In this document: positions 5,474 to 25,664 of the stretch, piece by piece
Layout of the letters: every line of letters starts with the position of its first letter
Numbering within the stretch: position 1 is the first letter of the stretch
Origin: an uncultured Pelagibacteraceae bacterium
Lineage (GTDB): Bacteria > Pseudomonadota > Alphaproteobacteria > Pelagibacterales > Pelagibacteraceae
Direction of reading: 5' to 3'
Length of the DNA stretch: 64,000 bases
NCBI GenBank assembly: GCA_902605865.1
Contig: CACLEJ010000004.1
Location: forward strand, 88,317 to 152,316
Made by a program: the position numbers and the translations under genes
The notes under the pieces: model-generated
Seen by the model: the letters and a program-made list of their open reading frames with translations, nothing else
The model's database searches: none
Told to the model about the DNA's origin: nothing

Positions 5474-6526
5474 ATGGAAGCTGCCATACAAATCCAAAAT
5501 GTTTGGAAAATATTTGGAAACACATCTAAAGATGCGCTGGACGCTATTCAAAATAAAAAAATTACAAAACAACAGGCTCTAGAGGAATACAACTCAGTAA
5601 TTGGAGTTTCAGATGTTTCATTTGACGTAAAAAAAGGTGAAATATTTTGTGTAATGGGACTATCAGGTAGTGGGAAGTCTACATTGGTTAGACATATTAA
5701 TAGACTATTAGAACCAACATCAGGAAAAATATTAATAAACAATCAAGATGTCATGCAATTTGATCAAAAAAATCTTCAAGATCTCAGAAATCAAAAAATT
5801 GGTATGGTTTTTCAAAATTTTGCATTAATGCCCCATAGATCAGTTTTAGATAATATTGCTATGCCATTAGAAATTAGAGGAGTTAGTAAAAATGATAGAT
5901 TAGATGCAGCAAATAACATCTTAAATATCGTAGAATTACAAGGTTGGGGAAATAAATATGCTCACGAATTATCTGGAGGTATGCAACAAAGAGTAGGGTT
6001 GGCAAGAGCATTAGCTGCTGATCCTGAATTTTTGCTGATGGATGAACCCTTTAGTGCCTTAGATCCTCTTATTAGACGTCAACTTCAGACTGAATTTATT
6101 AAACTTTCAAAACAAATGAAAAAAACAACTGTATTTATAACTCATGATCTTGATGAAGCAGTAAGAGTTGGCCATAGAATAGCTATCATGAGAGATGGTA
6201 GTGTGGTTCAAATAGGCACTCCAGAGGAGATAGTTGTAAATCCTGCTGATGATTATGTTGCAGATTTTGTAAAAGGTATATCTAGACTAAAAGTCGTTCA
6301 GGCCAAAACTATTATGCAACCCTTAGATGATTATAAGAAAAATTTTGGAGAAAATGTTGACAATAACGAAAGAGTTAAGGAAAACGATATATTAAGTAAA
6401 CTTATTGAGACATCAGTATCAGAGAATAAACCAATTATAGTGCTTAACAATGACAACGAAGAAGTTGGAATTATTACACAGTCAGATTTGTTGAAAGCGG
6501 TTGTTGAAGGAAATGATAATGAATAA
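5474..6526 (+). CDS. proV: Glycine betaine/quaternary amine ABC transporter, ATP-binding protein
   Basis: Cytosolic ATPase of the osmolyte importer. Walker A is GLSGSGKST (about residue 62), the signature is LSGGMQQRVGLARAL, Walker B is FLLMDEPFSALD and the switch His is in FITHD. The N-terminal pre-domain (IQNVWKIFG, with QALEEYNSVIGVSDVSF) and a C-terminal CBS-like segment ending IIVLNNDNEEVGIITQSDLLKAV are hallmarks of ProV/OpuAA. CBS segments in this family sense ionic strength; only about one CBS repeat is visible. The gene overlaps the permease start by a few bases. Confidence 0.9.
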   Translation: MEAAIQIQNVWKIFGNTSKDALDAIQNKKITKQQALEEYNSVIGVSDVSFDVKKGEIFCVMGLSGSGKSTLVRHINRLLEPTSGKILINNQDVMQFDQKNLQDLRNQKIGMVFQNFALMPHRSVLDNIAMPLEIRGVSKNDRLDAANNILNIVELQGWGNKYAHELSGGMQQRVGLARALAADPEFLLMDEPFSALDPLIRRQLQTEFIKLSKQMKKTTVFITHDLDEAVRVGHRIAIMRDGSVVQIGTPEEIVVNPADDYVADFVKGISRLKVVQAKTIMQPLDDYKKNFGENVDNNERVKENDILSKLIETSVSENKPIIVLNNDNEEVGIITQSDLLKAVVEGNDNE

Positions 6527-8021
6527 GGAGATAAAAAATTTATCTAGGTCAGAATTAATCAAAAATTTTGTAATTACAAATCCAGATTATTATATTAAAG
6601 AATTTAAGAAAATTGGTAGCAAACCATCTTACTCTTTTTCTTTTAATTTATTTGCTGCATTATTCGGACCAATTTGGTTTGGGTTAAGAAATGTTTGGAA
6701 TTATGCCTTAACATTTTTAATTGTTGAAACATTTGCAGTTGTTCAGATCATAAGAGGATTATTTGGCAATATCACAAAAGATGCTTTAGAAAAAATTGAT
6801 AAAATTCAGTCCACGATTGATTTTAGAAATAAGCAACTGCAGTCAGCAATCGAAAATAATCCAGACAAGGTCGAAGTTTATGAAAGAGCAATAAAATCTC
6901 TTGAAAAGGCAATGAAAGAATATGTGGTAGACGTTCAAATAATTGAGGCTTCAGCAATATGGATTACAATATCAGGAATTACTTTATTAGTTTTTATTAA
7001 ACTTATTCAAGGTGTACTCGCCAATACAATTTTAGAGAAAAGATATTCAGAATGGCTATCCAATAAATTGATTAGCCCAGGAATGAAAACAAAAAACTAC
7101 TTGTTAAGCATTGGATTTACCATAGTCATAATGTTTTTTTCAGTTATTCATTACAGTTTCCCTGGTTTTTTTTCTATAATGAACGACTTTCCTACCCACC
7201 CAGAGATAAGACTTACATCCATAAAGTGGGTTGAAACAATTTTTGATTATGCTGTGATAAAGGGGGATGCAGTATTTACCGCAATAACTATTGGTATCAG
7301 ATCAGTTCTAGACTTTTTAGAACTTTTATTTGTTAAAACTCCGTGGATAGTAATTATAACCACTATTGTAGTTTTAACTGCTTTATCAGCAGGGATAAGA
7401 ACTGCAATTTACTCAGCTGGATTTTTAGCTTACATGGGTTTTTTAGGTTTTTGGGTTAAGGCAATGACAACACTTGCTTTGCTTGGAACAGCTGCAATTT
7501 TAAGTATTGCTATAGGAATACCTTTAGGAATTTATTGTGCGAGACGTCAAAGATTTTATTCAATGATAAGACCAATAATGGATTTTATGCAAACTATGCC
7601 TGCATTTGTATTTATGATTCCTGTTATTGCATTTTTTGGAACAGGGAAAGTTGCAGCTGTCATCATTACAATGATTTTTGGAGGAACACCTGTTGTAAGA
7701 CTTACAGTTTTAGGTTTAAGAGGAGTACCTGAGACTATAAGAGAAGCTGCAATAGCTTATGGAGCATCTAAATGGTATTTACTTAGAAAAGTTGATTTAC
7801 CTTTGGCAACCCCATCAATACTCGCAGGAGTAAACCAAACTGTGATGTTAAGCTTAGCGATGGTTGTAGTAGCATCATTAATAGGAGCTAAAGGCCTAGG
7901 ACAAGACGTGCTTGAGGCACTACAATATGCAAATGTAGGCCAAGGAATTTTAGCTGGTATTGCAATATTATTTGTTGCTTTAATATTGGACAGAGTCGTT
8001 CAAGGTAAGAAAAGAGTTTAA
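6519..8021 (+). CDS. proW: Glycine betaine/quaternary amine ABC transporter permease, N-terminally extended
   Basis: Inner-membrane permease. The C-terminal ~220 residues carry the BPD transport fold and the EAA loop (REAAIAYGASKWYLLRKVDLP), matching ProW. The first ~270 residues are an extension: a soluble start, two hydrophobic segments (FNLFAALFGPIWFGLRNVWNY), a charged helical stretch (about residues 90-150) and further membrane segments, making it much longer than enteric ProW (about 350). I chose ATG 6519 because gaagg lies at a better spacing than for ATG 6513; the tracked TTG at 6501 is unlikely. It overlaps the proV stop. Confidence 0.85.
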   Translation: MNKEIKNLSRSELIKNFVITNPDYYIKEFKKIGSKPSYSFSFNLFAALFGPIWFGLRNVWNYALTFLIVETFAVVQIIRGLFGNITKDALEKIDKIQSTIDFRNKQLQSAIENNPDKVEVYERAIKSLEKAMKEYVVDVQIIEASAIWITISGITLLVFIKLIQGVLANTILEKRYSEWLSNKLISPGMKTKNYLLSIGFTIVIMFFSVIHYSFPGFFSIMNDFPTHPEIRLTSIKWVETIFDYAVIKGDAVFTAITIGIRSVLDFLELLFVKTPWIVIITTIVVLTALSAGIRTAIYSAGFLAYMGFLGFWVKAMTTLALLGTAAILSIAIGIPLGIYCARRQRFYSMIRPIMDFMQTMPAFVFMIPVIAFFGTGKVAAVIITMIFGGTPVVRLTVLGLRGVPETIREAAIAYGASKWYLLRKVDLPLATPSILAGVNQTVMLSLAMVVVASLIGAKGLGQDVLEALQYANVGQGILAGIAILFVALILDRVVQGKKRV

Positions 8022-9259: not shown

Positions 9260-9712
9260 ATGCATCCCATGAAATCACACAATAAATTTTTAATTATCAC
9301 TACATTTTTATTATCAACACTTTTTGCTAATATCGGTTTAGCTGCAGATGTAACAGTAGAAATGTTAAATAGACTGGATAAACAGTCAAATGTTTTTGAG
9401 CCAAAGATAGTAAGAGTAAACGTTGGAGATACAGTTCTTTGGAAAGCTAAAGACAAAGGTCACAACGTTGAATTTATTAAAAAAGGAGTTCCAGAAGGCG
9501 TTGGTAAATTTAAGTCAAAATTCAATAAGGATGTTGAATACAAATTTGAAATTCCTGGAATTTACGCATACTGGTGCACACCCCATAAAAATATGGGCAT
9601 GATTGGTTTTGTAGTTGTTGGTGATGATAAATCAAACCTAGAAGCAATAAAAAAACTTAGATTTTCGTCAAAATCTAAGAAAATGGCACCAGATTTAATA
9701 AATTCACTCTAA
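9260..9712 (+). CDS. Pseudoazurin-like blue copper protein
   Basis: Small periplasmic electron carrier of 150 residues. A signal peptide ending around ANIGLAAD is followed by a cupredoxin domain with all four type-1 copper ligands visible: His in KGHNVEF, then Cys, His and Met in YWCTPHKNMGM. NVGDTVLW and KFEIPGIYAYWCTPH match the pseudoazurin/plastocyanin pattern. A lysine-rich tail (KKLRFSSKSKKMAP) follows the fold. Starts at 9260 or 9269 are both possible. No nitrite reductase or other classical partner is nearby, so its redox partner is unknown. Confidence 0.8.
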   Translation: MHPMKSHNKFLIITTFLLSTLFANIGLAADVTVEMLNRLDKQSNVFEPKIVRVNVGDTVLWKAKDKGHNVEFIKKGVPEGVGKFKSKFNKDVEYKFEIPGIYAYWCTPHKNMGMIGFVVVGDDKSNLEAIKKLRFSSKSKKMAPDLINSL

Positions 9713-10368
9713 TTAAATATTAAATCAGTTTTTAACTTTCTTACCCTAATCATTGAGTTTTTGAACTCACTATCGGTGTGAAAGTTTCCTGGAAAAGCAA
9801 TACAATTAATTTTTGCTTTAACAGCTGATTTTAGGCTAATTTCGGTATCTTCAATTGCAATACATTCATCATTTTTTAATTTAAGTTTCTTTAAACAGTG
9901 TTTGTAAACTTCTAATTTTGATTTTGTATTTTTATTTCCAGTGATATTACCAATATAATTAAAATCTTTCTTCTTAAGATATTTTACTGTGGAAAAAAAA
10001 ACTGAATCAATATTATTTTTTGTTGTAGATGTAGCAAATCCTATTTTTATTTTGTTTCTTTTACAGTAACTGATAATATCTAAGACTCCAGGTCTTGGTT
10101 TTATTTTATTTTTTTTTAAATAATTATTAAATATTAATGTTTTTAAATTTCTTATTTTTTTTGCATTAGTAGATGTATTATTTTCTAAACTATATTTCCT
10201 AACTCTTTTCTCTCCGCCTGGTTTTTTTAACATTGATTTATAAATTTTTTTACTCCAGTACCAATTTAATCCTACTTTTTGAAATGCTTGATTAAAACAA
10301 TTTCTTTGTATATCAGAGGTCTCAATAATTGTTCCAATTGAACCAAATAAGACTGCTTTGATTGTCAT
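9709..10368 (-). CDS. HAD-like protein with degenerate catalytic motif I
   Basis: A 219-residue haloacid dehalogenase-fold protein resembling CbbY/phosphoglycolate phosphatases. Motif I reads AVLFGSIGTIIET where active enzymes have FDxDGT, so the nucleophilic Asp and the acid/base Asp are both absent. Other motifs persist: FATSTT (motif II), a Lys in NTKSKLEVYKH (motif III) and IEDTEISLKSAVKA (motif IV). The start at 10368 (MTIKAVLF) overlaps the permease stop by one base (TAATG), so the longer tracked ORF from 10476 is rejected. It is probably translationally coupled to the importer. A phosphatase role is doubtful; it may bind a phosphorylated ligand. Confidence 0.75.
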   Translation of the reverse strand: MTIKAVLFGSIGTIIETSDIQRNCFNQAFQKVGLNWYWSKKIYKSMLKKPGGEKRVRKYSLENNTSTNAKKIRNLKTLIFNNYLKKNKIKPRPGVLDIISYCKRNKIKIGFATSTTKNNIDSVFFSTVKYLKKKDFNYIGNITGNKNTKSKLEVYKHCLKKLKLKNDECIAIEDTEISLKSAVKAKINCIAFPGNFHTDSEFKNSMIRVRKLKTDLIFN

Positions 10369-11249
10369 TAGCCTTTGATGGCACCAGCGGTTAATCCACT
10401 TATAACCTGTCTTTGAAAAAACATTACTAATAGAAATAATGGAGCGGTAGCAGACACAACTGCAGATACAGCCCACATTAAATTTCCTTCATGCTGGTTG
10501 GTTCCAAGATAACTTTGAATTTTAGGAACCATCGTGTGGTTCTCTTGATTTAACAATAAAGCTGTTACTGTAAAATCATTATAAGCTAACATGAGACTAA
10601 ACAATCCAGCTGTGATTACTCCAGGCCACATCACAGGCATTATAATATGTCTAAAGGCTTGGAAATATGAACAACCATCAATCAAGGCACTTTCATCCAA
10701 TTCTTTAGGCACAGTTTTAAAAAAAGAATAAAGCAGCCATAAGGTAAAAGGTTGATTAATTGCAACAAGCACTACAATTGTAGTTGGTAAAATTCCCCAG
10801 ATTTGTAATTGAAAAAAAGGAAATAGATAACCTGACACCAATGTTATATGCGGCATTGCTCTGAAAATTAAAGCAATAATTAAAATCCAAAATGCATAAT
10901 TCTTTGTAGATCTGGATAGTGCGTATGCTCCTAATGTGCCAAGAAATAATGAAATTGAAACAACACTTATTGTAACTATCACTGTGTTTCTTGAAGCTTT
11001 CCAAAATTCACCTTCAAACCACGCTCCACTATAAGCTTCCTTGGTAAATCTAGCGCCAGTTTCAATTAAAGTATTAAAAGCTGTTATTGCATACCACCAA
11101 TCAGCTCTTGAGAAAAAGTCAGCTCTGACTTTAAAGGATCCCCAAAACGTCCAAATAAATGGAAAACATGCAAGTAACAACCATATAACTATAAATATTG
11201 TGTTGAAGGTTTTTAAACTGTTTGATTTTTTATCTAATCCAAAATCCAT
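10368..11249 (-). CDS. Sugar-type ABC transporter permease (MalG/UgpE-like)
   Basis: Inner-membrane permease of 293 residues with about six hydrophobic segments, starting with a short cytoplasmic tail and IFIVIWLLLACFPFIWTFWGSF. The EAA loop is ESALIDGCSYFQAFRHIIMPVMWPG, and the ending QRQVISGLTAGAIKG is the usual C-terminus of CUT1-family second permeases. It lies 2 bases after the other permease gene. Substrate is undetermined; CUT1 systems carry sugars, polyols, glycerol-3-phosphate and related polar compounds. Confidence 0.88.
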   Translation of the reverse strand: MDFGLDKKSNSLKTFNTIFIVIWLLLACFPFIWTFWGSFKVRADFFSRADWWYAITAFNTLIETGARFTKEAYSGAWFEGEFWKASRNTVIVTISVVSISLFLGTLGAYALSRSTKNYAFWILIIALIFRAMPHITLVSGYLFPFFQLQIWGILPTTIVVLVAINQPFTLWLLYSFFKTVPKELDESALIDGCSYFQAFRHIIMPVMWPGVITAGLFSLMLAYNDFTVTALLLNQENHTMVPKIQSYLGTNQHEGNLMWAVSAVVSATAPLFLLVMFFQRQVISGLTAGAIKG

Positions 11250-11251
11250 AA

Positions 11252-12280
11252 TTATCTATTTGTTCTAAACTCTTTCCAAGTTCTCAGTAAAACTGGCGTT
11301 AAAATTATTGAAATTCCTACAATAGTCATAATCGATGTTGCTGCTGCTGATCCAAATAAAATTACTTCCTCATTAACTAAGTTATCATAAATCAACCAAG
11401 ATAAAGATTGGGCACTACCTTCAGCACTAAAACCTATGATAGGTTCAAATACTCTAAAATTATCCATTAATGAAATTAAAGCAACAAAGGTAACTACAGG
11501 ATATATATGTGGTAAAACTATATGTTTAACTCTTTGAAATCTTGAAGCACCATCTATAATTGAAGCTTCTAATGGTTCTTGTGGAACAGTTTGAAGTGCT
11601 GCATAAAAAACAACAAAAGCAAAAGGGGAGTGATGCCAAACTCCATAAATAATAATTGTAATCCAAGTTAAAGCTTTTGATGATTTAACAGATAAGTAAG
11701 GATCATCCATTAATATTTGAAGATTTGCACCTATAATTCCTTCTGCATCAATCATCCAGAATAATACTAGAGAACCTACCAAAGGAGTTACAATCATTGG
11801 TAAAATTGTACCAAAAATAAGGGGACCTCTAATTTTTCTAGAAATTGCGTTTAGACTTAGTGCAATAATAAATCCTAAAAGCAGAACACATGGTGTAACA
11901 ATTACACAATAGGTTAAGGTAAATACTAAAGCTTTGTAAAACGGAAGATTTCCTACCTTGCCAATAAATTCTCCAACTGATTTACTCTCACTCCAAAATT
12001 CTGACATTTGATCAGATGCCAAGTGATTTCTATCAATGTATGTACCAAAACCATTAAATTTTCCTAATGGTTTCTCTTCTTTAATTTTTGAAGTAGCTTC
12101 TTGATCTACAACTACTGATGTTTTGCATCCAAATGGATCACATTTTTTAACTTCAATAAGTATTTGATCATGTTGAGCGTAAAAAGATTGAATACCTGTT
12201 GAAATAATTGGCAGCCCAATGAATAAAATCATTGCTAATCCTGCTGGGAAAAAAAACCAGAAAAAACTTCTATTGGGCAT
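11252..12280 (-). CDS. Sugar-type ABC transporter permease (MalF/UgpA-like)
   Basis: First permease of the importer, 342 residues. An N-terminal helix (FWFFFPAGLAMILFIGLPII) is followed by a soluble periplasmic insert with two cysteines (KKCDPFGCKTSV) and then the core membrane domain with the EAA loop EASIIDGASRFQRVKHIVLPHIYP. The large periplasmic loop before the core is a MalF-like feature. It sits downstream of the binding-protein gene, separated by a hairpin. Confidence 0.88.
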   Translation of the reverse strand: MPNRSFFWFFFPAGLAMILFIGLPIISTGIQSFYAQHDQILIEVKKCDPFGCKTSVVVDQEATSKIKEEKPLGKFNGFGTYIDRNHLASDQMSEFWSESKSVGEFIGKVGNLPFYKALVFTLTYCVIVTPCVLLLGFIIALSLNAISRKIRGPLIFGTILPMIVTPLVGSLVLFWMIDAEGIIGANLQILMDDPYLSVKSSKALTWITIIIYGVWHHSPFAFVVFYAALQTVPQEPLEASIIDGASRFQRVKHIVLPHIYPVVTFVALISLMDNFRVFEPIIGFSAEGSAQSLSWLIYDNLVNEEVILFGSAAATSIMTIVGISIILTPVLLRTWKEFRTNR

Positions 12281-12331: not shown

Positions 12332-13552
12332 TTATAGAAAACCTTGTTCTTTTGCTTTAGTGATATAAGCGGCTTCAACATCTTTCAATGCTTGCTCAGC
12401 TGACTCATTTCCTTGCAAAAACTCAACAATTTCACTACCCAAAGCACCATGCATTAATCCCATTTGTGGTAACATTGGATAAGGTTTTGCTCCCATCTTA
12501 ACTGCTTCAATTACTCCAACAGATTTTGGACCAGGCACAAAACCTTCAACTAACCAAACAGCTTGATCAGCTGCTTTTGCAACCATATCTTTTGAAGATG
12601 CTGCATGAGCCATTGCTCTAAATGAAGCTTCTGCGTCTGCATCAGATCTATTTTTAGCAAGTGTAAATCCATCCCACCAAAGTGTTGCTGCTGGAATGTT
12701 ACCACCACCAACTGTTGCAGGAGCAACTAATTTAGTAGCAGCAGTTATTTTCGCATCACCTTCATCGTCAAGTAATGTTCCAGATCTAGATGCCCATAAT
12801 GTCATAATTGCAACATTTCCAGATTCCCACTCAACTTTGATAGCTTCACTATCATGCGTTAAATAATCAGGGTTACTTAAATCAGCCAGTTTTTTTAACA
12901 TATTCAAAGTTGCTACACCTTTAGCATTATTGATGTTTGGTTGTGCACCACCATCTTTAAAGAATTCACCACCATGACCAATGTACATGTTTACAAATTC
13001 TTCAGCTAAATTCCAACCTGCTTTGTAAGCTGCTGCATAAGGATATTTCATTTTCCCAGCTGCTCTGATTTTTTCAGCAGCCGCTACAACTTCCTCGTAA
13101 GTTTTTGGAATAGCAATTCCATTTTCTTTTAAAACATCTGTTCTTACATAAAGATGTTGAGTATTAGCCATAAATGCTACAGCCATTACTTTTCCATCAA
13201 TTGTAATGAGTTGTGACTCTTGAATTCCTTTACCATATTTTTTAACTAGATCATTCATTGGTCTAATTAAATCAGCATTCATTAATGGAACTATAGAACT
13301 ATTAGCAGCAACTCTAACTGAAAACTCTGAAGGATTTGCTGTTAAAGCTGGTACTGCAATTTTGTTGTGTTCAGCTGAGTGAGTGACTTTAAAGTCAGCA
13401 CTTCCTTTACATTCTTTTGCAGTTTCAACTAAAGTTCTTAGAGCAGGAAAATCATTTGCTAAAATATTTATTGATCCACTTTTAATGTTACAGTCAGCGT
13501 TAGCTACTGTTCCAAAAAGTAAAAACAATAAAGTAACTAGTATTTTTTTCAT
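12332..13552 (-). CDS. Sugar-type ABC transporter substrate-binding protein
   Basis: Periplasmic binding protein of 406 residues with signal peptide MKKILVTLLFLLFGTVANAD. The extracellular solute-binding family 1 fold is suggested by MKYPYAAAYKAGWNLAEEFVNMYIGHGGEFF, VEWESGNVAIMTLWASR and LWWDGFTLAKN. It heads the minus-strand importer genes, with a hairpin between it and the permeases; high expression is expected for the binding component. The ligand is unknown. The neighbouring MetE-like, cupin and SnoaL genes suggest a small organic compound that is not a plain sugar, which is inference. Confidence 0.85.
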   Translation of the reverse strand: MKKILVTLLFLLFGTVANADCNIKSGSINILANDFPALRTLVETAKECKGSADFKVTHSAEHNKIAVPALTANPSEFSVRVAANSSIVPLMNADLIRPMNDLVKKYGKGIQESQLITIDGKVMAVAFMANTQHLYVRTDVLKENGIAIPKTYEEVVAAAEKIRAAGKMKYPYAAAYKAGWNLAEEFVNMYIGHGGEFFKDGGAQPNINNAKGVATLNMLKKLADLSNPDYLTHDSEAIKVEWESGNVAIMTLWASRSGTLLDDEGDAKITAATKLVAPATVGGGNIPAATLWWDGFTLAKNRSDADAEASFRAMAHAASSKDMVAKAADQAVWLVEGFVPGPKSVGVIEAVKMGAKPYPMLPQMGLMHGALGSEIVEFLQGNESAEQALKDVEAAYITKAKEQGFL

Positions 13553-13632: not shown

Positions 13633-14760
13633 TTAGATTTGTTTTGACGCAATTTCAGCACCTGCGACAAGTGCTTCAAGTTTTTTGTAAACAATATCTT
13701 CATCTACATTTCCATAGCCTGCAAAGGTACTAAATCCACAATCTGTTCCTGCCATTAATTGATTTGGCTCTAGTACTCTAGAAAAGGCTAAAATTCTATG
13801 TTTTACAACATCTGGATGTTCAATAAAGTTAGAAGTAGACTCAATAACCCCTGGAATTATCATCTTATCTTTGGGTACTTTTATATTTTCAAAAACTTCC
13901 CATTCATGGGCATGTCTAGGGTTAGCAGACTCTATTAAATATTTACTCACATTTGCCTTAAAAGCTAATCCAATTATTTTATCTAAACCAATATCATGAG
14001 TATGAGGTCCTTCATAATTTCCCCAGCAAATATGCATTCTTACTCTAGTGGGGTCTATATTAGATAATGAATTATTTAAAACTTCCACATGTTTGTTTGC
14101 TCTTTCCAAAAAATCTTTTTCTGAAATTTCCTTGTAAATCATATGTCTTGATAGTGCGAGATCTGGACAATCAATTTGAATAGATAACCCACTCTCAGTT
14201 ATTTTCTCATATTCAAACTTCATTATATCTGACAGTTTCTCAAGATACTCATCGTCGTTTTTATAAAACTTGTTGGGTAAAAAATTACATATAACTCCTG
14301 GAGATGGACAATTCATAAATCCATCATTATGTGTATTTTGTTCTAAAGCATTTTTAAAATTAAGAATATCTTTGTTAATTGAAACTTCATCTTTTATTTT
14401 CAATTCACTTGTACAACATGGTCTTTTATATGTTGGAGTACCACCTGATAGAATAAGTTTTTTTTTAAAAGATGGAAAATCATCTAAGTCTTTTGGAGCT
14501 TTTCTTTCACTTTCTCCAGAGAAACCCTCAACTCTATCTTTAATGTAAGTTGCGTAACTTATTTTTGACATTTCTCCATCGCTAACAGAGTCTATTCCGG
14601 TATTAATTTGCTTTTTTACAACTTCAGATACATTTTTTTTAACCATTGCATCAAAGCTGCTAATATCTATTTTTTCTTGATTATCTTTAGAGGCAAGAAG
14701 ACTGGAGAGTTCGTTTGATCTTGGTAGACTTCCAACATGTGTAGTTTTTATTTTAACCAT
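13633..14760 (-). CDS. Cobalamin-independent methionine synthase-like (MetE C-terminal domain) protein
   Basis: A 375-residue UROD/MetE-like barrel equivalent to the catalytic C-terminal half of MetE. Zinc-binding residues are visible as MHICWGNYEGPH (His and Cys), a Glu in LIESANPRHAHE and GTDCGFSTFAGYG (final Cys). The opening KTTHVGSLPRS is standard for this family. These stand-alone core proteins transfer methyl or other one-carbon groups, often with unknown donors. It overlaps the SnoaL-like gene upstream by 8 bases, so it belongs to this cluster and may act on the methyl group of the imported substrate rather than in core methionine synthesis. Confidence 0.8.
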   Translation of the reverse strand: MVKIKTTHVGSLPRSNELSSLLASKDNQEKIDISSFDAMVKKNVSEVVKKQINTGIDSVSDGEMSKISYATYIKDRVEGFSGESERKAPKDLDDFPSFKKKLILSGGTPTYKRPCCTSELKIKDEVSINKDILNFKNALEQNTHNDGFMNCPSPGVICNFLPNKFYKNDDEYLEKLSDIMKFEYEKITESGLSIQIDCPDLALSRHMIYKEISEKDFLERANKHVEVLNNSLSNIDPTRVRMHICWGNYEGPHTHDIGLDKIIGLAFKANVSKYLIESANPRHAHEWEVFENIKVPKDKMIIPGVIESTSNFIEHPDVVKHRILAFSRVLEPNQLMAGTDCGFSTFAGYGNVDEDIVYKKLEALVAGAEIASKQI

Positions 14761-15721
14761 GGTTCAATAATATTTGTTTCCATATAGCAACTTCATCAAA
14801 TAAAACCCATTCTCTAATAATTGAGTTATTATTAAATTCAGCATGGTTAATACCCATTATAAATATTTTTTTATTTGATGCTTTACCATATTCATCACTT
14901 TCATTAGCATGCTCCCCTTCTAAAAACCATCTGGCTGATACTCTTGGATTTTTCTCTGGCTCTTCTAAAAATCCAACATGCTCAATACTGAATTTTATAT
15001 TTGTGAATATTTTCTTAATGGAATTCCATTTTTCAATAATATCTTCTCTTCCGTGACCAAGTTTATTTCCTGGCCAAAACAAATTTGCAGCTCTGTCATA
15101 ATCTTCATATTCGTAACTTTTATTAAAGATATTACTTAACACCTGCGTATATTTCTCAGCGATTGATCCATCTTTATAACTCTCTGCTTTATAATCTGAA
15201 TTTTTATCAGAATTAGCATCATACAATTTACTTGAATTTGATACGCCTCCTTCCTTTTCAATCATTTTTCTAGCAAACTCCTCTGGGGAATAACCAATCT
15301 GTCTGACCATTGCTCCTTGATCTCTAACGATCCATTCATCATAAACTTGATTATTCTTACAAGCACAATCAGCAATAACCCTATAATAAATATCTTTACC
15401 AGTGGGTTCACCATAAAAGCCTTTTCCAAGATGAGTTCCTTTGCTTAAAATTCTATGTGATGAGTGATATCCCATTTCATCATTGCCATTCCAAATAACA
15501 TCTTCACCTAGTAACTGCCTGTTTGGGAATTCTTTTAAAGTAGAATAGGTAGAGTTTATAACAGGTTTATTTCCATATGTTATACCAAATGGCGATCTAA
15601 CAGGAATATTCTTAGTATAAAACTCACCAATAGACTCAACATCTTTATTTTCCCAAATTTGTTCTGTAATTTTTAAAATAAAGTCTGGAAAGTCTTTATA
15701 TTTTTTATCAAAACCTTTCAT
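14753..15721 (-). CDS. Double SnoaL/NTF2-like domain protein
   Basis: A 322-residue cytosolic protein with two SnoaL-like halves: residues about 1-150 (WENKDVESIGEFYTKNIPVRSPFG...) and 190-322 (YTQVLSNIFNKSYEYEDYDRAANLFWPGNKLGHGREDIIEKW...). SnoaL/ester-cyclase folds act as small isomerases, cyclases or hydratases and often lack a conserved catalytic motif. I moved the start from 15739 to 15721, where ATG overlaps the cupin stop as TAATG. A paralogous double-domain protein is encoded divergently at 16718, so the two may work as partners in one pathway. The exact reaction is unknown. Confidence 0.7.
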   Translation of the reverse strand: MKGFDKKYKDFPDFILKITEQIWENKDVESIGEFYTKNIPVRSPFGITYGNKPVINSTYSTLKEFPNRQLLGEDVIWNGNDEMGYHSSHRILSKGTHLGKGFYGEPTGKDIYYRVIADCACKNNQVYDEWIVRDQGAMVRQIGYSPEEFARKMIEKEGGVSNSSKLYDANSDKNSDYKAESYKDGSIAEKYTQVLSNIFNKSYEYEDYDRAANLFWPGNKLGHGREDIIEKWNSIKKIFTNIKFSIEHVGFLEEPEKNPRVSARWFLEGEHANESDEYGKASNKKIFIMGINHAEFNNNSIIREWVLFDEVAIWKQILLNHG

Positions 15722-16665
15722 TAGATGCTTGATACACAATTAAGATACGAAACTTCGCTTTCATTAATCTCAATATTAATATTCACACCTAATGGAACTG
15801 AAAGAGTATCTTTAAAATTTATTTCTTTTGATAAATCTTCCATTTCAATTTTCCATTTTCCTTTTTGTGAGAAAAGTATTGTCGGTTTATTAAAAATTAA
15901 ATCTTCAACTCTGCCTTTTTTTGATTTTAAAGTACTTAAACTAAAACCTGTATCTTGTTTTATTATTGGATTAATAGACTTATCTTGAAATATGTTTCCT
16001 AGTATGTGTGAAATTTTAATATTATCTCCAATATCTATTTCATTTTGAATTCTATTGCTGAGACTAGATATATTGCTTTGTAATTGATCTAACTTGTAAT
16101 TATTAAATTTTTTTATTTCATCATTAGATATAGGTTCTAATAATCTCCTGCCATTTGGTATTGCTTTAATATTTAGATCGATTAATGAATTATCATCTAA
16201 AAGCGCCATACCTGTCTTTTTTGCTCTCTCTAATACCTCAGGTATCCAAGTGACAATTCCTGGATCATCACCTCCTAGTACAACAAAAATTAAACCTTCT
16301 TCATCACCAGCATTTTCAAATGCTCTAAACATATTTGTTGGCATTGAAATAATGTCTCCTGGACTTAAAATCGTTTCATCTTTGCCCTCAGACCCCCAAT
16401 AAAATCTCCATTTACCTGAATATATTATGAATACTTCTGCTGTTAAATGGCTATGTAAACCCGATCCATTAAAGGGTTTTGCTGATACTGCACCTAAATT
16501 AAAACCATGGGGCTCAGATATTTTTATTGATTGGTCAGCGTCTTCTGCAACACCTGGACCTAAAATAGAATAATTTTTTCTTTCTTTGTGTCCATCTAAT
16601 TTACCCTCAACAAATGGTAAAGTGCTTGGAATTAAATCTTTAAATTTTGCTAGTCTAATATTCAT
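15721..16665 (-). CDS. Cupin-domain protein
   Basis: A 314-residue protein with one clear cupin barrel in its N-terminal half: GLHSHLTAEVFIIYSGKWRFYWG (HxH and Glu metal ligands) and LSPGDIISMPTNMFRAFEN. The usual second-motif His is not obvious, being replaced around NMFRAF. The C-terminal 150 residues are less characteristic and may be a degenerate second cupin (WKIEMEDLSKEINFKDTLSVPLGVN). It is the first gene of a three-gene minus-strand run and is divergent from 16718 over a 52-base promoter region. Confidence 0.75.
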   Translation of the reverse strand: MNIRLAKFKDLIPSTLPFVEGKLDGHKERKNYSILGPGVAEDADQSIKISEPHGFNLGAVSAKPFNGSGLHSHLTAEVFIIYSGKWRFYWGSEGKDETILSPGDIISMPTNMFRAFENAGDEEGLIFVVLGGDDPGIVTWIPEVLERAKKTGMALLDDNSLIDLNIKAIPNGRRLLEPISNDEIKKFNNYKLDQLQSNISSLSNRIQNEIDIGDNIKISHILGNIFQDKSINPIIKQDTGFSLSTLKSKKGRVEDLIFNKPTILFSQKGKWKIEMEDLSKEINFKDTLSVPLGVNINIEINESEVSYLNCVSSI

Positions 16666-16717
16666 ATTTTTTTAATTATAATATTGTGATACACGAATAT
16701 TTCCAATAAATAAATAT

Positions 16718-17803
16718 ATGCAAATAGAACAATTTGATACAGGTCTAAAAACAAAAACAAATGTACAGAACATTGTTCTTTCACCTGAAGAAAATTTAGA
16801 AAATAAAAAATTAGTTAGAGGTTATTTAAATAAAATCGTCACTTCAGGAATAAATGAAATCGATAGTAATTTAGATGAAGCTTTTACAGCTGATGTTAAG
16901 ATAAATAGTTTTTATCCAATTAATGAATTTACAGGAGTTAAAAATTTAAAAGATAAAATTTGGTTACCATTATTTGAAGCATTTCCTGATCTTGAAAGAA
17001 GAGAAAATATTGTTGTTGGAGGAGCCTTCAGAGATAAAATTTTGATAGGATCATACTCTGTTTTATCAGGTTATTTTAGAAATTCATGGCTAGGAATAAA
17101 ACCAAATCATAAAATGATAAATCTTCGATGTTGTGAAATTCATGAGCTTAAAGAAAAAAAAATAATCGAGAGTCATATCTTAATTGATGTTATGGACTTT
17201 TTAAGACAATGTGGCATCTCCTCAATCAATCCATCAAGAGGTTCAGAGGGAGCTTGGCTTCCACCAATAAATACAGATGGGGTAAATTTTTTTGAAAAAA
17301 ATTTAGAGGTTTCAAATTCAAATTTAAAACAAGCCTTGGAAATGGGAAGAAGTTTGAATATAAAACCAGAGAAAGAAAATCTCTCAGATAATGAATTAAA
17401 AGAAAGATTATTAAATCATCCCCAAAAAGAATATTGGCATGAAAAAATGATTTGGTACGGTCCATGTGGAATAGGCACTTCAAGATCACTAGAGGGATTT
17501 ATTGATATGCATCAATTACCATTTAGAAGATCATTTACTGAAAGAGATTATTTTAAGCTAGGACATTATTGTGAAATAGGGGATGGTAAATTTTCACTAT
17601 GTGCAGGTTGGCATAGTTTAGAGGCGAACTATGGTTCAAACGATTGGTTGGGATATAAAGCAAATAATCAAAAATTAACTATGAGAGTTATGGATTTTTA
17701 TCATCATGATGAGGGAAAAATCCGTGAAAATTGGGTACCAATTGATATACTTCACATTCTAAAACAAATCGGTATTGATGTTTTAGATAATATTAAAGGC
17801 TAA
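16718..17803 (+). CDS. Double SnoaL/NTF2-like domain protein (ester cyclase type)
   Basis: A 361-residue cytosolic protein with two SnoaL-type halves: residues about 25-170 (AFTADVKINSFYPINEFTGVKNLKDKIWLPLFEAFPDLERRENIV) and 230-360 (EKMIWYGPCGIGTSRSLEGFIDMHQLPFRRSF... IRENWVPIDILHILKQIGID). The second half carries the PCGIGTSRSLEGF and KIRENWVPID patterns of ester-cyclase-like proteins. It is 1 base upstream of the importer ATPase gene, tying it to uptake of the same compound. The reaction is unknown. Confidence 0.72.
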   Translation: MQIEQFDTGLKTKTNVQNIVLSPEENLENKKLVRGYLNKIVTSGINEIDSNLDEAFTADVKINSFYPINEFTGVKNLKDKIWLPLFEAFPDLERRENIVVGGAFRDKILIGSYSVLSGYFRNSWLGIKPNHKMINLRCCEIHELKEKKIIESHILIDVMDFLRQCGISSINPSRGSEGAWLPPINTDGVNFFEKNLEVSNSNLKQALEMGRSLNIKPEKENLSDNELKERLLNHPQKEYWHEKMIWYGPCGIGTSRSLEGFIDMHQLPFRRSFTERDYFKLGHYCEIGDGKFSLCAGWHSLEANYGSNDWLGYKANNQKLTMRVMDFYHHDEGKIRENWVPIDILHILKQIGIDVLDNIKG

Positions 17804-17804
17804 A

Positions 17805-18854
17805 ATGGCAAATATAAAATTTACTGGAGTACATAAATCTTTTGGGACTAATAAGATTATTACAGATTTTAATTTATCAGGTAAGGATGATGAATTTCTT
17901 GTATTAGTTGGACCGTCTGGATGTGGAAAATCAACTTTGTTAAGAATGATTGCAGGTTTAGAAAAGATTGATGAAGGCGAAATATTTATTAATGATCAAA
18001 AAATAAATGATCTGCATCCTTCTAAACGACAAACAGCAATGGTATTTCAGTCATATGCTCTTTACCCTCACATGAATGTTTATGAAAATATGTCATTCGG
18101 GTTAAAAATTGAAAAAAGATCTAAAGAAGAAATCCAAACAAAAGTTATGCAGGCAGCAAAAATATTAAAGATAGAGGAATTGTTGGAAAGAAGACCCAAA
18201 CAATTGTCAGGAGGGCAGAGACAAAGGGTTGCAATTGGAAGAGCAATTACAAGAAATCCAAAAATATTTTTATTTGATGAACCTTTATCAAATTTAGATG
18301 CAGCACTAAGATCAGAAATGAGAGTTGAGATTTCCAAATTACATAATCAAATTAAAACAAATATGATTTATGTTACTCATGATCAGGTAGAAGCAATGAC
18401 CTTAGCAGATAGGATAGTAATATTAAATCTTGGTAATATTGAACAAGTTGGAACTCCAGACGAAATTTACAATAATCCAGCAAATATTTTTGTAGCCCAA
18501 TTTATTGGAACTCCAAAAATGAATATTTTACCTTTAAATAATGAAAATATAATTTCAGATAATAAAATTATTTTTTTAGGCAATGAAATAACTTTTGAAA
18601 AAACTAAATTTGATAAAAAGAAATATTTCTTAGGAATAAGACCTGAACATTTTAACCTATCTAATGAGTCACAATTTAAATTTAAGCCTAAAATTGATCT
18701 TGTTGAAAACTTAGGAAATGAAAAGATTGTATACATGAGTAACGACAACTTAGAACTTAGTGCAAAAATTTCTAGTCAGGAAGATTTTCAAAATCAGATT
18801 AATTTTGACTCTAAAGATATTTTTATTTTTGACGAAAACGGAAGAAGAATTTAA
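17805..18854 (+). CDS. Sugar-type ABC transporter ATP-binding protein (MalK/UgpC-like)
   Basis: Cytosolic ATPase of 349 residues. Walker A is GPSGCGKST, the Q-loop lies in MVFQSYALYPHMNVYENM, the signature is LSGGQRQRVAIGRAI, Walker B is IFLFDEPLSNLDAALR and the switch is YVTHDQVEAMTLADR. The C-terminal 110 residues form the regulatory TOBE region (FLGIRPEHFNL) seen in CUT1 ATPases. No other ATPase accompanies the permeases at 10368-12280, so this divergent gene is the likely partner. Confidence 0.9.
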   Translation: MANIKFTGVHKSFGTNKIITDFNLSGKDDEFLVLVGPSGCGKSTLLRMIAGLEKIDEGEIFINDQKINDLHPSKRQTAMVFQSYALYPHMNVYENMSFGLKIEKRSKEEIQTKVMQAAKILKIEELLERRPKQLSGGQRQRVAIGRAITRNPKIFLFDEPLSNLDAALRSEMRVEISKLHNQIKTNMIYVTHDQVEAMTLADRIVILNLGNIEQVGTPDEIYNNPANIFVAQFIGTPKMNILPLNNENIISDNKIIFLGNEITFEKTKFDKKKYFLGIRPEHFNLSNESQFKFKPKIDLVENLGNEKIVYMSNDNLELSAKISSQEDFQNQINFDSKDIFIFDENGRRI

Positions 18855-19793: not shown

Positions 19794-21080
19794 TTAATTA
19801 GAAAATCCGTATTTTCTAAGTCTTACATCTCCAGTTCGAGCATGTGCTTCCATACCTTCATATCTTGAAATCCTTGCACATGCTGCGCCCACTTCTTTAG
19901 TTGATTCCTTTGTCATTCTTTGGAAACTCAATGTTTTAATGAATTTTCCAACAAATAAACCACCTGTGTATTTCCCCGCACCTTTTGTTGGTAAAATATG
20001 GTTAGTTCCAGAACATTTATCTCCATAAGCAACTGTAGTTTCTTCACCAATAAATAATGATCCGTAGTTTTTTAATCTATCATGAAACCATTGTAGGTTT
20101 TTAGTTTGTATCTCTAAATGTTCGGGAGCATATTCATCACTGATTTTAGCCATTTCTTCATCTGTATCGCATAAAATAACTTCCCCATAATCTCTCCAAG
20201 CTGCACCAGAGTTTTCTCTCGGTAAGTCAGGTAAGTCTGCAATTAATTCTGGCACTCTTTTCATGACATATTCAGCTAATGATTTACTTGTAGTAAATAA
20301 CCATGCAGGAGAATTGTAACCATGCTCAGCTTGTCCAACTAAATCGAAAGCAACTAATTCTGGGTCTGCTGTTTCATCTGCTATAACTGCAATTTCTGTA
20401 GGACCAGCAAATAAATCTATACCTACTTTGCCAAATAAAATTCTTTTTGATTCTGCAACAAATTGATTTCCAGGACCAACAAGCATATCAGCAGGTGCAT
20501 TACCAAAAAGACCATAAGTCATTGCAGCAATAGCCTGAACTCCACCTAAATTCATTATTACATCTGCTCCACATAAGTCAGCGGTATAAACAATAGCAGG
20601 ATGAACTCCAACACCAGGTTTTGGTGAACTGCAAACAATAATATTTTTAACACCAGCAACTTTAGCTGTAGTTACACTCATTACTGCAGATGCTATATGA
20701 GCATATCTTCCTGCAGGTACATAACAACCTGCTGTATTAACAGGAATTAATTTTTGTCCAGCAAATAATCCATCTGAAAGTTCTACCTCAAAATCTTGGC
20801 CATAATTTTTTAATTGTGCTTCAGCAAACTTTCTTACTCTTTCATGAGAGAATTGAATGTCGTCTTTGGTTTTAGGATCTAAATTTTTTTTAATTTGTTC
20901 AATTTTTTCTCTTGTAACTACTACTTCTCCTTCATATTTATCAAATTTTTTTGATAACTCGATACATCCCTCTTCTTTTGTTTTCTCTATATCTTTTAGA
21001 ATATTTTCTACAATCTCTCTTGTTTTTGTATCATCAGTAGAAGATGTTTTGGGTGATTTTTTTAAATAATTTATTGCCAT
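19794..21080 (-). CDS. hpsN: HisD-like dehydrogenase, probable sulfopropanediol 3-dehydrogenase
   Basis: A 428-residue zinc- and NAD-dependent dehydrogenase of the histidinol dehydrogenase family. Family residues are visible: AGPTEIAVIAD, GQAEHGYNSP, EYAPEHLEIQ and EGMEAHARTGDVRLRKYGF. The segments AGCYVPAGRYAHIASAVMSVTTAKVAGV and GTNHILPT differ from typical HisD (YVPGG, GPNHVLPT) and fit the HpsN branch that oxidises 2,3-dihydroxypropane-1-sulfonate to sulfolactate. No other his gene is near, while suyAB (sulfolactate lyase) is in the window. Likely paired with the phosphate acyltransferase upstream. HisD itself is the main alternative. Confidence 0.65.
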   Translation of the reverse strand: MAINYLKKSPKTSSTDDTKTREIVENILKDIEKTKEEGCIELSKKFDKYEGEVVVTREKIEQIKKNLDPKTKDDIQFSHERVRKFAEAQLKNYGQDFEVELSDGLFAGQKLIPVNTAGCYVPAGRYAHIASAVMSVTTAKVAGVKNIIVCSSPKPGVGVHPAIVYTADLCGADVIMNLGGVQAIAAMTYGLFGNAPADMLVGPGNQFVAESKRILFGKVGIDLFAGPTEIAVIADETADPELVAFDLVGQAEHGYNSPAWLFTTSKSLAEYVMKRVPELIADLPDLPRENSGAAWRDYGEVILCDTDEEMAKISDEYAPEHLEIQTKNLQWFHDRLKNYGSLFIGEETTVAYGDKCSGTNHILPTKGAGKYTGGLFVGKFIKTLSFQRMTKESTKEVGAACARISRYEGMEAHARTGDVRLRKYGFSN

Positions 21081-21122: not shown

Positions 21123-22034
21123 TTAATCCAAAGCTACCACAGCTGCCGCAATAGACGCTAGCCTTGCTGTCGCATCATCTGATCTACTAGTAATTACTAC
21201 TGGAACTTTTCCTCCTATAACCACTCCTGCCGCACACGCACCCATAAAATAAATCATCATTTTAACTAGAGCGTTACCTGTTTCAACATTTGGAACTAAC
21301 AATACATCTGCATCTCCTGCAACTATATTGTTTATACCTTTTATCTCTGCGGATTTTTTTGACACACTATTATCAAATGCTAGAGGTCCAAATATATCTG
21401 CATTAAGACTCTCTTTTTCAGCTAATTCACATATTTCTTTAGCATCCAGTGAACTTTGCATGCTGTCTAAAACTTCTTCTGTTGCAGAAAGAATGGAGAC
21501 TTTTGGTCTTGCTATTTTTATTCTATGACAAAAATCAACTACATTTTTTAAAATATGCATTTTTGTTTTAACATTTGGATTAACATTTAGAGCACCATCA
21601 GTTATTATTAGTGGTTTATCCTCTTTATCTAAAGTCATATGCCAAATATGACTCAATCTTTTTTTACCAATCAAATTATATTTTCGTAACAGAACTTCTT
21701 TCATTAAAATGTCAGTGTGTATATGACCTTTAACAATTATTTTGACTTTTCCATCACCAGCAAGCTTTGCTGCAATTTTAGCAGTGTTATTTTCAACTGG
21801 TTCATTTATTATTTCATATTCAGAGATATCGAATTTTAAATCCTCAGCAGTTTTTTTAATTTCTATTTCATCACCTATAAAAACAGGGATGATCAATTTT
21901 TCTTTTACGCAATCCATTATAGATAGCATAGGAAGTCTTTTGCCTGCATTTACGATTGCTGCTTTGGCTCCTCTTTTTTGGTGAGCAATATCAAGTAAAT
22001 TGAATGGACAGACTGTTGATTTATCTGAAAGCAT
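21123..22034 (-). CDS. pta: Phosphate acetyl/butyryltransferase
   Basis: A 303-residue enzyme with the Pta/Ptb fold: KIIVKGHIHTDILMKEVL, ITDGALNVNPNVKTKMHILKNVV, NADIFGPLAFDNSVS, ADVLLVPNVETGNALVKMMIYF and VVITSRSDDATARLASIAAAV at the C-terminus. It swaps CoA and phosphate on acyl groups. With Xsc at 60070 producing acetyl phosphate, the likely role is to convert that to acetyl-CoA; phosphate butyryltransferase is the alternative. It is 42 bases upstream of the HpsN-like gene on the same strand, so the two are probably cotranscribed. Confidence 0.78.
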   Translation of the reverse strand: MLSDKSTVCPFNLLDIAHQKRGAKAAIVNAGKRLPMLSIMDCVKEKLIIPVFIGDEIEIKKTAEDLKFDISEYEIINEPVENNTAKIAAKLAGDGKVKIIVKGHIHTDILMKEVLLRKYNLIGKKRLSHIWHMTLDKEDKPLIITDGALNVNPNVKTKMHILKNVVDFCHRIKIARPKVSILSATEEVLDSMQSSLDAKEICELAEKESLNADIFGPLAFDNSVSKKSAEIKGINNIVAGDADVLLVPNVETGNALVKMMIYFMGACAAGVVIGGKVPVVITSRSDDATARLASIAAAVVALD

Positions 22035-24659: not shown

Positions 24660-25664
24660 CTATTTCAATAAAATATGAAGATCTTCCATTATATTATCCG
24701 GAATTTTAATTTCTGATTTATAATTCTTTTTATATCTTCTTAATTTGTTTTCTCCTGGATATAATATTTCTTTAAGTCCTTTTAATTTAGGAAGTTTTTT
24801 AATTCTTTTTATATTTTCTTTTATTCTTTTTTTATAATTTGATTGAAATAAGTTTGCTTTCATTACAATAAATAAATGACCAATATTTTGTGGCCCAGAA
24901 AAATCATCAAAAGGATCTTTCACTTTTCCACCGTGATTACCTCCTGTGTAAACACCACTTAATATATCTACCATCCAGGCAAGTCCTGATCCTCTAAACC
25001 CTGCTATAGGAAGTTGAACACCATCAAGTGCTTTTTTAGCATCTGTTGTTGGATTACCAAATTTATCCAAAGCAACACCCTCAGGTATTTTTGAATTAGA
25101 TCTTGATGCAACTCTTATTTTACCTCTATTAATCATTGAGACAGATGTATCCAATATAAATGGAATTTTAGAACCAGTTGGCGATCCAAAACAAATTGGG
25201 TTTGTACCAAATAAAGATTTTATAGCACCATGTGGGGCTATAGCAGGGGGTGCATTAGTAAATACTAAGGCGATCATATTTTTTTTTACAGCTTGCTCAG
25301 CGTAGTATCCCGACATTCCATAATGGCCACTGTTTTTAACTGCCACAAGTCCTATTCCTGTTTTTTTAGCATTTTTTATGGCTTTTTTAATAGCTGTATC
25401 TGCAGCAACAAATCCAATGCTATCATCAGCATTTATATGAGTAACAGATTGGGAAATATTTTTTAGCTTGATTTTAGGTCTTGGATTGATCAGCTTTTTT
25501 TTGATCCGATCACAATACATTTTTAATCTAGATAATCCATGAGTTGGAGCGCCTACTAATTCAGCATTAATTATTGCATCAGCACAAATACCTGCGTGTT
25601 TTTTGGAAAGTTTAAACTTATAAAATATTTTAATTATAGTCTTTTTAAGTTTATTTTTTTCCAT
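24660..25664 (-). CDS. Malate/L-lactate/sulfolactate dehydrogenase family (Ldh_2) oxidoreductase
   Basis: A 334-residue NAD(P)-dependent dehydrogenase with a non-Rossmann fold. Family signatures: SRLKMYCDRI, VKNSGHYGMSGYYAEQAVKKNMIALVFTNAPPAIAPHGA, FGTNPICFGSP, PFILDTSVSMINRGKI and GFRGSGLAWMVDILSGVYTGG. Members reduce 2-keto acids (malate, ureidoglycolate, 2,3-diketogulonate, and 3-sulfolactate in ComC). Given the sulfonate genes in the window, a ComC-like sulfolactate role is possible but unproven. The epoxide hydrolase gene ends one base away on the same strand, so the two form a likely operon. Confidence 0.75.
   Translation of the reverse strand: MEKNKLKKTIIKIFYKFKLSKKHAGICADAIINAELVGAPTHGLSRLKMYCDRIKKKLINPRPKIKLKNISQSVTHINADDSIGFVAADTAIKKAIKNAKKTGIGLVAVKNSGHYGMSGYYAEQAVKKNMIALVFTNAPPAIAPHGAIKSLFGTNPICFGSPTGSKIPFILDTSVSMINRGKIRVASRSNSKIPEGVALDKFGNPTTDAKKALDGVQLPIAGFRGSGLAWMVDILSGVYTGGNHGGKVKDPFDDFSGPQNIGHLFIVMKANLFQSNYKKRIKENIKRIKKLPKLKGLKEILYPGENKLRRYKKNYKSEIKIPDNIMEDLHILLK

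Follow-up and report, generated by a model that had tools for sequence, protein, structure and literature searches.

The gene at positions 9709-10368 (reverse strand) of the window, that is, of the whole 64,000-nucleotide stretch of Pelagibacter (SAR11) DNA analysed here, encodes a HAD-fold protein in which both motif I aspartates have been replaced, and it belongs to a conserved alphaproteobacterial branch in which this loss is shared. Judging from sequence, we favour, with moderate confidence, the reading that this protein is a non-hydrolytic pocket protein (a pseudophosphatase), a putative binder of a phosphorylated or other anionic small molecule.

A conserved branch with a GSIG motif

The gene and the positions that correspond to the HAD active site are as follows:

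9709..10368, reverse strand: pseudo-HAD gene, 219 aa, CbbY-like fold, GSIG branch
10327..10347, reverse strand: motif I, residues 8-14, FGSIGTI (Asp9 to Gly, Asp11 to Ile)
10024..10026, reverse strand: motif II, Thr115, retained in 15 of 15 diverse members
9922..9924, reverse strand: motif III, Lys149, retained here, Asn in a sister group
9847..9852, reverse strand: motif IV, Glu173-Asp174, retained

The translated protein starts at its N-terminus with MTIKAVLFGSIGTIIETSDIQR. Two Pfam profiles match it above their curated cut-offs (HAD_2, E=3.5e-18; Hydrolase, E=6.5e-10), and profile and fold together place it in the HAD fold, with a Rossmannoid core and a C1 cap. The NCBIfam matches are at subfamily level only, near beta-phosphoglucomutase, and none of the matching models passes its equivalog cut-off. 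Among solved proteins, Rhodobacter sphaeroides CbbY comes closest (E 7e-26). An AlphaFold2 model based on 23 Pelagibacter sequences has a mean pLDDT of 92.5; its best PDB matches (TM 0.77-0.79) are again R. sphaeroides CbbY, in the apo form and in a D10N mutant in which xylulose-1,5-bisphosphate was trapped. An additional profile search agrees with CbbY as well, although it is not independent, since its alignment held three DxD relatives. A plastocyanin-like gene (9260-9712, forward strand) runs towards the HAD gene and overlaps it by 4 bases; the two are neighbours only in the window's own Pelagibacter subgroup.

Motif I departs from the FDxDGT of active HAD phosphatases just as the original prediction had it: FDVDGT of CbbY aligns with FGSIGT, and the DxD with its nucleophilic aspartate, the mark of a catalytic HAD protein, is gone. 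The Ser/Thr of motif II, the Lys/Arg of motif III and the acidic pair of motif IV are all there (T115, K149, E173-D174). To describe motifs II to IV as intact is accurate for II and IV, but slightly generous for III, where Lys149 stands in an eroded version of its usual K-P-x-P context (KNTKSKLEVY). This lysine is kept in nearly all GSIG members and is Asn in the group of L003 and L052-L057.

When 15 diverse GSIG proteins are compared with 24 DxD relatives, five positions change state: D9G, V10S, D11I, E18S and H21Q. The exceptions among the DxD rows are a Q at position 21 in one, and an F or C at position 10 in two. The same state is found in both sets at G12, N26, F29, W38, G52, R55, K76, R92, E173 and D174, while E16, R22, W36, Y43, T115 and K149 are almost always kept. 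The fixed cap positions are W36, W38, Y43 (W36 and Y43 almost always), GG51-52, R55, K76 and R92; their roles we take to be those of their counterparts in CbbY and beta-phosphoglucomutase.

Of 397 genomes in the same family, 41 carry the gene, all of them from one genus, and a scan of GTDB genomes returned 72 loci, all assigned to Pelagibacteraceae, Pelagibacterales or Candidatus Pelagibacter. Every fetched Pelagibacter homologue with a readable N-terminus, down to 47% identity, has FGSIG, a constancy that excludes chance and sequencing error. Class-wide and plasmid searches yield two kinds of relative, GSIG and DVDGT. The DVDGT kind is CbbY proper, and includes a Mesorhizobium gene within a Rubisco operon. 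GSIG itself occurs at eight alphaproteobacterial loci beyond Pelagibacter, one on a Roseobacter litoralis plasmid (40% identity) and seven in other alphaproteobacterial genomes, in agreement with the original statement that similar forms exist in other marine alphaproteobacteria.

In a tree computed without the five trait columns, 17 GSIG rows stand apart from 22 DxD rows with a support of 100/99, which places the protein outside the CbbY branch, in a sister branch to the DxD CbbY-type proteins. An earlier tree that used the genome's other HAD proteins as an outgroup was distorted by long branches, and the final tree omits them. Homologues with an intact DxD had been named in advance as evidence against a non-canonical branch; they do exist, but they form that separate sister branch. 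Alignment of the homologues, the check originally proposed, finds GSIG conserved, with two GAIG members as the variants. Together, the invariance of FGSIG, the five changed positions and the tree strongly support a conserved branch and not an error.

The dN/dS of the HAD gene against near relatives is about 0.12-0.25, similar to the values for the SnoaL and cupin genes in its cassette (see below), indicating that the gene is under purifying selection and is maintained. Catalytic residues have thus been lost clade-wide under purifying selection, which is a mark of HAD pseudoenzymes in general. A different fate is seen in the protein of L188 (the gene at 6492-7076, reverse strand, of L202), which has GGMG in motif I, a very long branch and the substitutions T115A, K149A, E173A, R55L and K76H. 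Here a CbbY relative has probably lost catalysis separately, independently of the GSIG branch; when it is added to the tree, the rows without DxD no longer form one clade. The GSIG branch is free of such decay, which suggests that it keeps its pocket for a reason.

The importer cassette and its surroundings

In the window, the HAD gene is the last of a run of reverse-strand genes, with a divergent arm on the other side:

10368..11249, reverse strand: CUT1-type ABC permease (MalG/GlcU-like), stop shares one base with the HAD start
11252..12280, reverse strand: CUT1-type ABC permease (UgpA/GlcT-like)
12332..13552, reverse strand: sugar-type solute-binding protein (SBP_bac_1)
13633..14760, reverse strand: MetE C-terminal-domain-like protein (Meth_synt_2), same cassette as the HAD gene
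14753..15739, reverse strand: SnoaL-like protein, same cassette, start codon uncertain
15721..16665, reverse strand: cupin protein, same cassette
16718..17803, forward strand: double SnoaL-like protein, divergent cassette arm
17805..18854, forward strand: UgpC/MalK-type ABC ATPase
19794..21080, reverse strand: HpsN-type DHPS 3-dehydrogenase (hisD in profile libraries), cassette neighbour

The one-base coupling to the permease is exact (CTAATG). Across Pelagibacter, the overlap of permease stop codon with HAD start codon reads TAATG at 70 loci (some counted twice) and TTGA at 51; three loci were scored with other junctions, apparently through mis-picked starts. The genomes with the adjoining permease and those with the HAD gene are the same 41 of the 397. 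Wherever the contig is long enough, the Pelagibacter order of cupin, SnoaL-like, MetE-like, binding protein, two permeases and HAD is constant. The ATPase of the divergent arm probably powers the importer. Sequence change is quicker in the HAD protein than in the proteins encoded around it: its identity is down to about 50% in comparisons in which the permeases still show about 91%. This sets a limit to the specificity of its partner surface. A search for a close solved relative of the binding protein found none, and the substrate could not be named in that way. In some Pelagibacter genomes (L206, L207 and L210), the stretch from the UgpC-type ATPase to hpsN contains another CUT1-like permease pair, which is distantly related (29-36% identity). 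L102, a single-cell contig with pieces of the permease and HAD genes in both orientations, is probably an amplification chimera.

A hint of the pathway comes from the dehydrogenase gene, whose product scores 540 bits to sulfopropanediol 3-dehydrogenase (HpsN) versus 243 to true HisD; in each of the eight Pelagibacter genomes inspected, hpsN lies close to the cassette. For SAR11 HpsN, activity on R-DHPS has been demonstrated (PMC11131964). It is therefore possible that the cassette substrate is sulfonate-related, although synteny alone is insufficient to establish this. A Pta-like gene (21123-22034) adjoins the HpsN-type gene, and a sulfolactate-dehydrogenase-like gene that scores below the NCBIfam cut-off (24660-25664) is not far from it.

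The expectation that the HAD gene always lies beside CUT1 importers is borne out within Pelagibacter (41 of 41 genomes), but fails at several loci outside this genus. No importer was found beside the HAD gene at L142, L144, L145, L146, L107, L200 and L201. At L140, the order is MetE, RraA-like, SnoaL, cupin, SnoaL, an HpsN-type dehydrogenase (373 bits to HpsN versus 245 to histidinol dehydrogenase), SDR and then HAD. At L141, a permease adjoins the HAD gene, followed by SDR and SnoaL genes, and at L143 importer genes are near it without being adjacent. Since the gene often has no adjoining transporter outside Pelagibacter, the link to the importer is secondary, and does not define the branch. 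The set of MetE-like, two SnoaL-like and cupin genes with a CUT1 importer (13633-17803 in the window) recurs in L140, and in part in L141 and L143. The idea that the neighbouring SDR is homologous across lineages was rejected: the L140 and L141 proteins look orthologous (73%), the L144 protein does not (25%).

Possible functions of the GSIG protein

A non-hydrolytic binder is favoured because both aspartates are gone while the binding residues are kept, and because engineered loss of one of these aspartates spares ligand binding in related enzymes. In such a protein, the CbbY-type fold (core and C1 cap) would have lost its phosphoryl-transfer chemistry, with the nucleophile Asp9 replaced by Gly and the acid/base Asp11 by Ile throughout one alphaproteobacterial branch, and would have kept its pocket. 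Bound in this pocket, a phosphorylated or otherwise anionic, sugar-like metabolite would stay unhydrolysed; the output might be a ligand-driven closure of the cap, sensed by a protein partner. In Pelagibacter, a cassette near hpsN that serves CUT1 import and catabolism would have recruited the gene. The position of the gene in this cassette and its overlap with the permease gene suggest the importer or a pathway enzyme as the likeliest partner there, which is a guess.

The main competitor, which we regard as clearly less probable yet worth serious attention, is a neofunctionalised enzyme that contributes a step to the cassette pathway by a reaction that dispenses with the Asp nucleophile, for example by isomerising or epimerising a phosphorylated or sulfonated sugar, or through elimination or aldol chemistry on it. 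The acids of motif IV and the lysine of motif III could equally serve a new chemistry, and the protein may have residual divalent-metal chemistry. The strict retention of T115, K149, E173, D174, R55, K76 and R92 is what an active site would show, but a binding protein would show it as well. In two lineages the gene lies in a catabolic run beside an SDR gene, in one of them with an HpsN-type dehydrogenase, yet the deep members have no common pathway context. In addition, we know of no HAD enzyme that functions without the motif I aspartate.

That the protein is purely structural, a protein-protein adaptor with a vestigial pocket as proposed for PcrP/PA2803, seems unlikely. The overlap with the permease gene in Pelagibacter would suit an adaptor, and PcrP offers a precedent (PMC12632274), but PcrP is without the residues of motifs 2, 3 and 4 and parts of the cap, while the GSIG branch keeps its pocket.

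It is tempting to speculate further along the lines of the favoured non-hydrolytic binder: the GSIG loop would be a nucleophile-free anion site, and the protein a SAR11 metabolite sensor, coupled to the permease by the start/stop overlap, that directly gates the CUT1 importer and the pathway, possibly in response to an intermediate that is a sulfonated C3 compound or a sugar phosphate. Such a specific role is unlikely.

A hydrolase with a substitute nucleophile, for example Ser10 of GSIG, is very improbable. Ser10 is invariant in Pelagibacter and in most other members, but two members, from genomes of family f23, have GAIG and keep G, I, S, Q and all other branch-specific states. Ser10 is therefore inessential and serine chemistry is not needed, and this candidate was rejected; a serine nucleophile would also leave the loss of the acid/base aspartate, E18 and H21 unexplained. 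Sequencing error, a pseudogene or chance can be dismissed in view of the 41 of 397 genomes, the 72 GTDB loci, the invariant FGSIG, the class-wide relatives and the dN/dS values.

Few cells in the ocean are as abundant as those of SAR11, which possess only a small number of regulators. In so streamlined a genome, a pseudoenzyme that is maintained and linked to an importer would be an unusual component, whether regulatory or catalytic. The GSIG branch also represents a clean natural experiment, in which both catalytic aspartates were lost and the remaining pocket stayed constant. The database name "HAD hydrolase" for GSIG proteins (e.g., WP_187432052.1) is probably misleading.

Comparison with known systems

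HAD pseudoenzymes are a kind already known. No description of the GSIG branch was found in the open-access full-text papers searched, and a paper search for the SAR11 cassette of CUT1 importer, MetE, SnoaL and cupin genes found nothing. The best match in sequence and fold is CbbY, a xylulose-1,5-bisphosphate phosphatase of HAD subclass IA (R. sphaeroides 4UAR/4UAT, Arabidopsis 4UAV). The two proteins have in common W-x-W, GG-x-x-R, Lys76, Arg92, T115, K149 and the E173-D174 positions. The GSIG protein differs in having neither DxD nor the equivalents of E18 and H21 that go with it in CbbY, these being Ser and Gln, and its gene lies outside any Calvin operon.

PcrP/PA2803 is a HAD protein without catalytic residues that is inactive and binds partner proteins (PMC12632274). 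Like the GSIG branch, it represents a conserved HAD subfamily without the nucleophile, and for PcrP the inactivity has been shown (PMC12632274). Unlike the GSIG branch, it belongs to a phosphonatase-like clade found only in pseudomonads, with a shortened cap and with motifs II-IV lost; the GSIG protein retains these motifs and the cap, and its nearest relative is CbbY.

The alphaproteobacterial CUT1 cassettes resemble that of the window in their solute-binding protein, two permeases and UgpC-type ATPase, while the window has in addition the overlapping pseudo-HAD gene and the MetE/SnoaL/cupin set.

Parallels for the motif itself are found among laboratory mutants. In the engineered D10N forms of CbbY (4UAT, with XuBP) and beta-phosphoglucomutase (8Q1D/8Q1E, with fructose 1,6-bisphosphate), a motif I aspartate (in CbbY, the acid/base) has been removed and, according to the entry titles, the ligand is still bound. 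However, these mutants keep the nucleophile D8, whereas the GSIG proteins are naturally without both aspartates.
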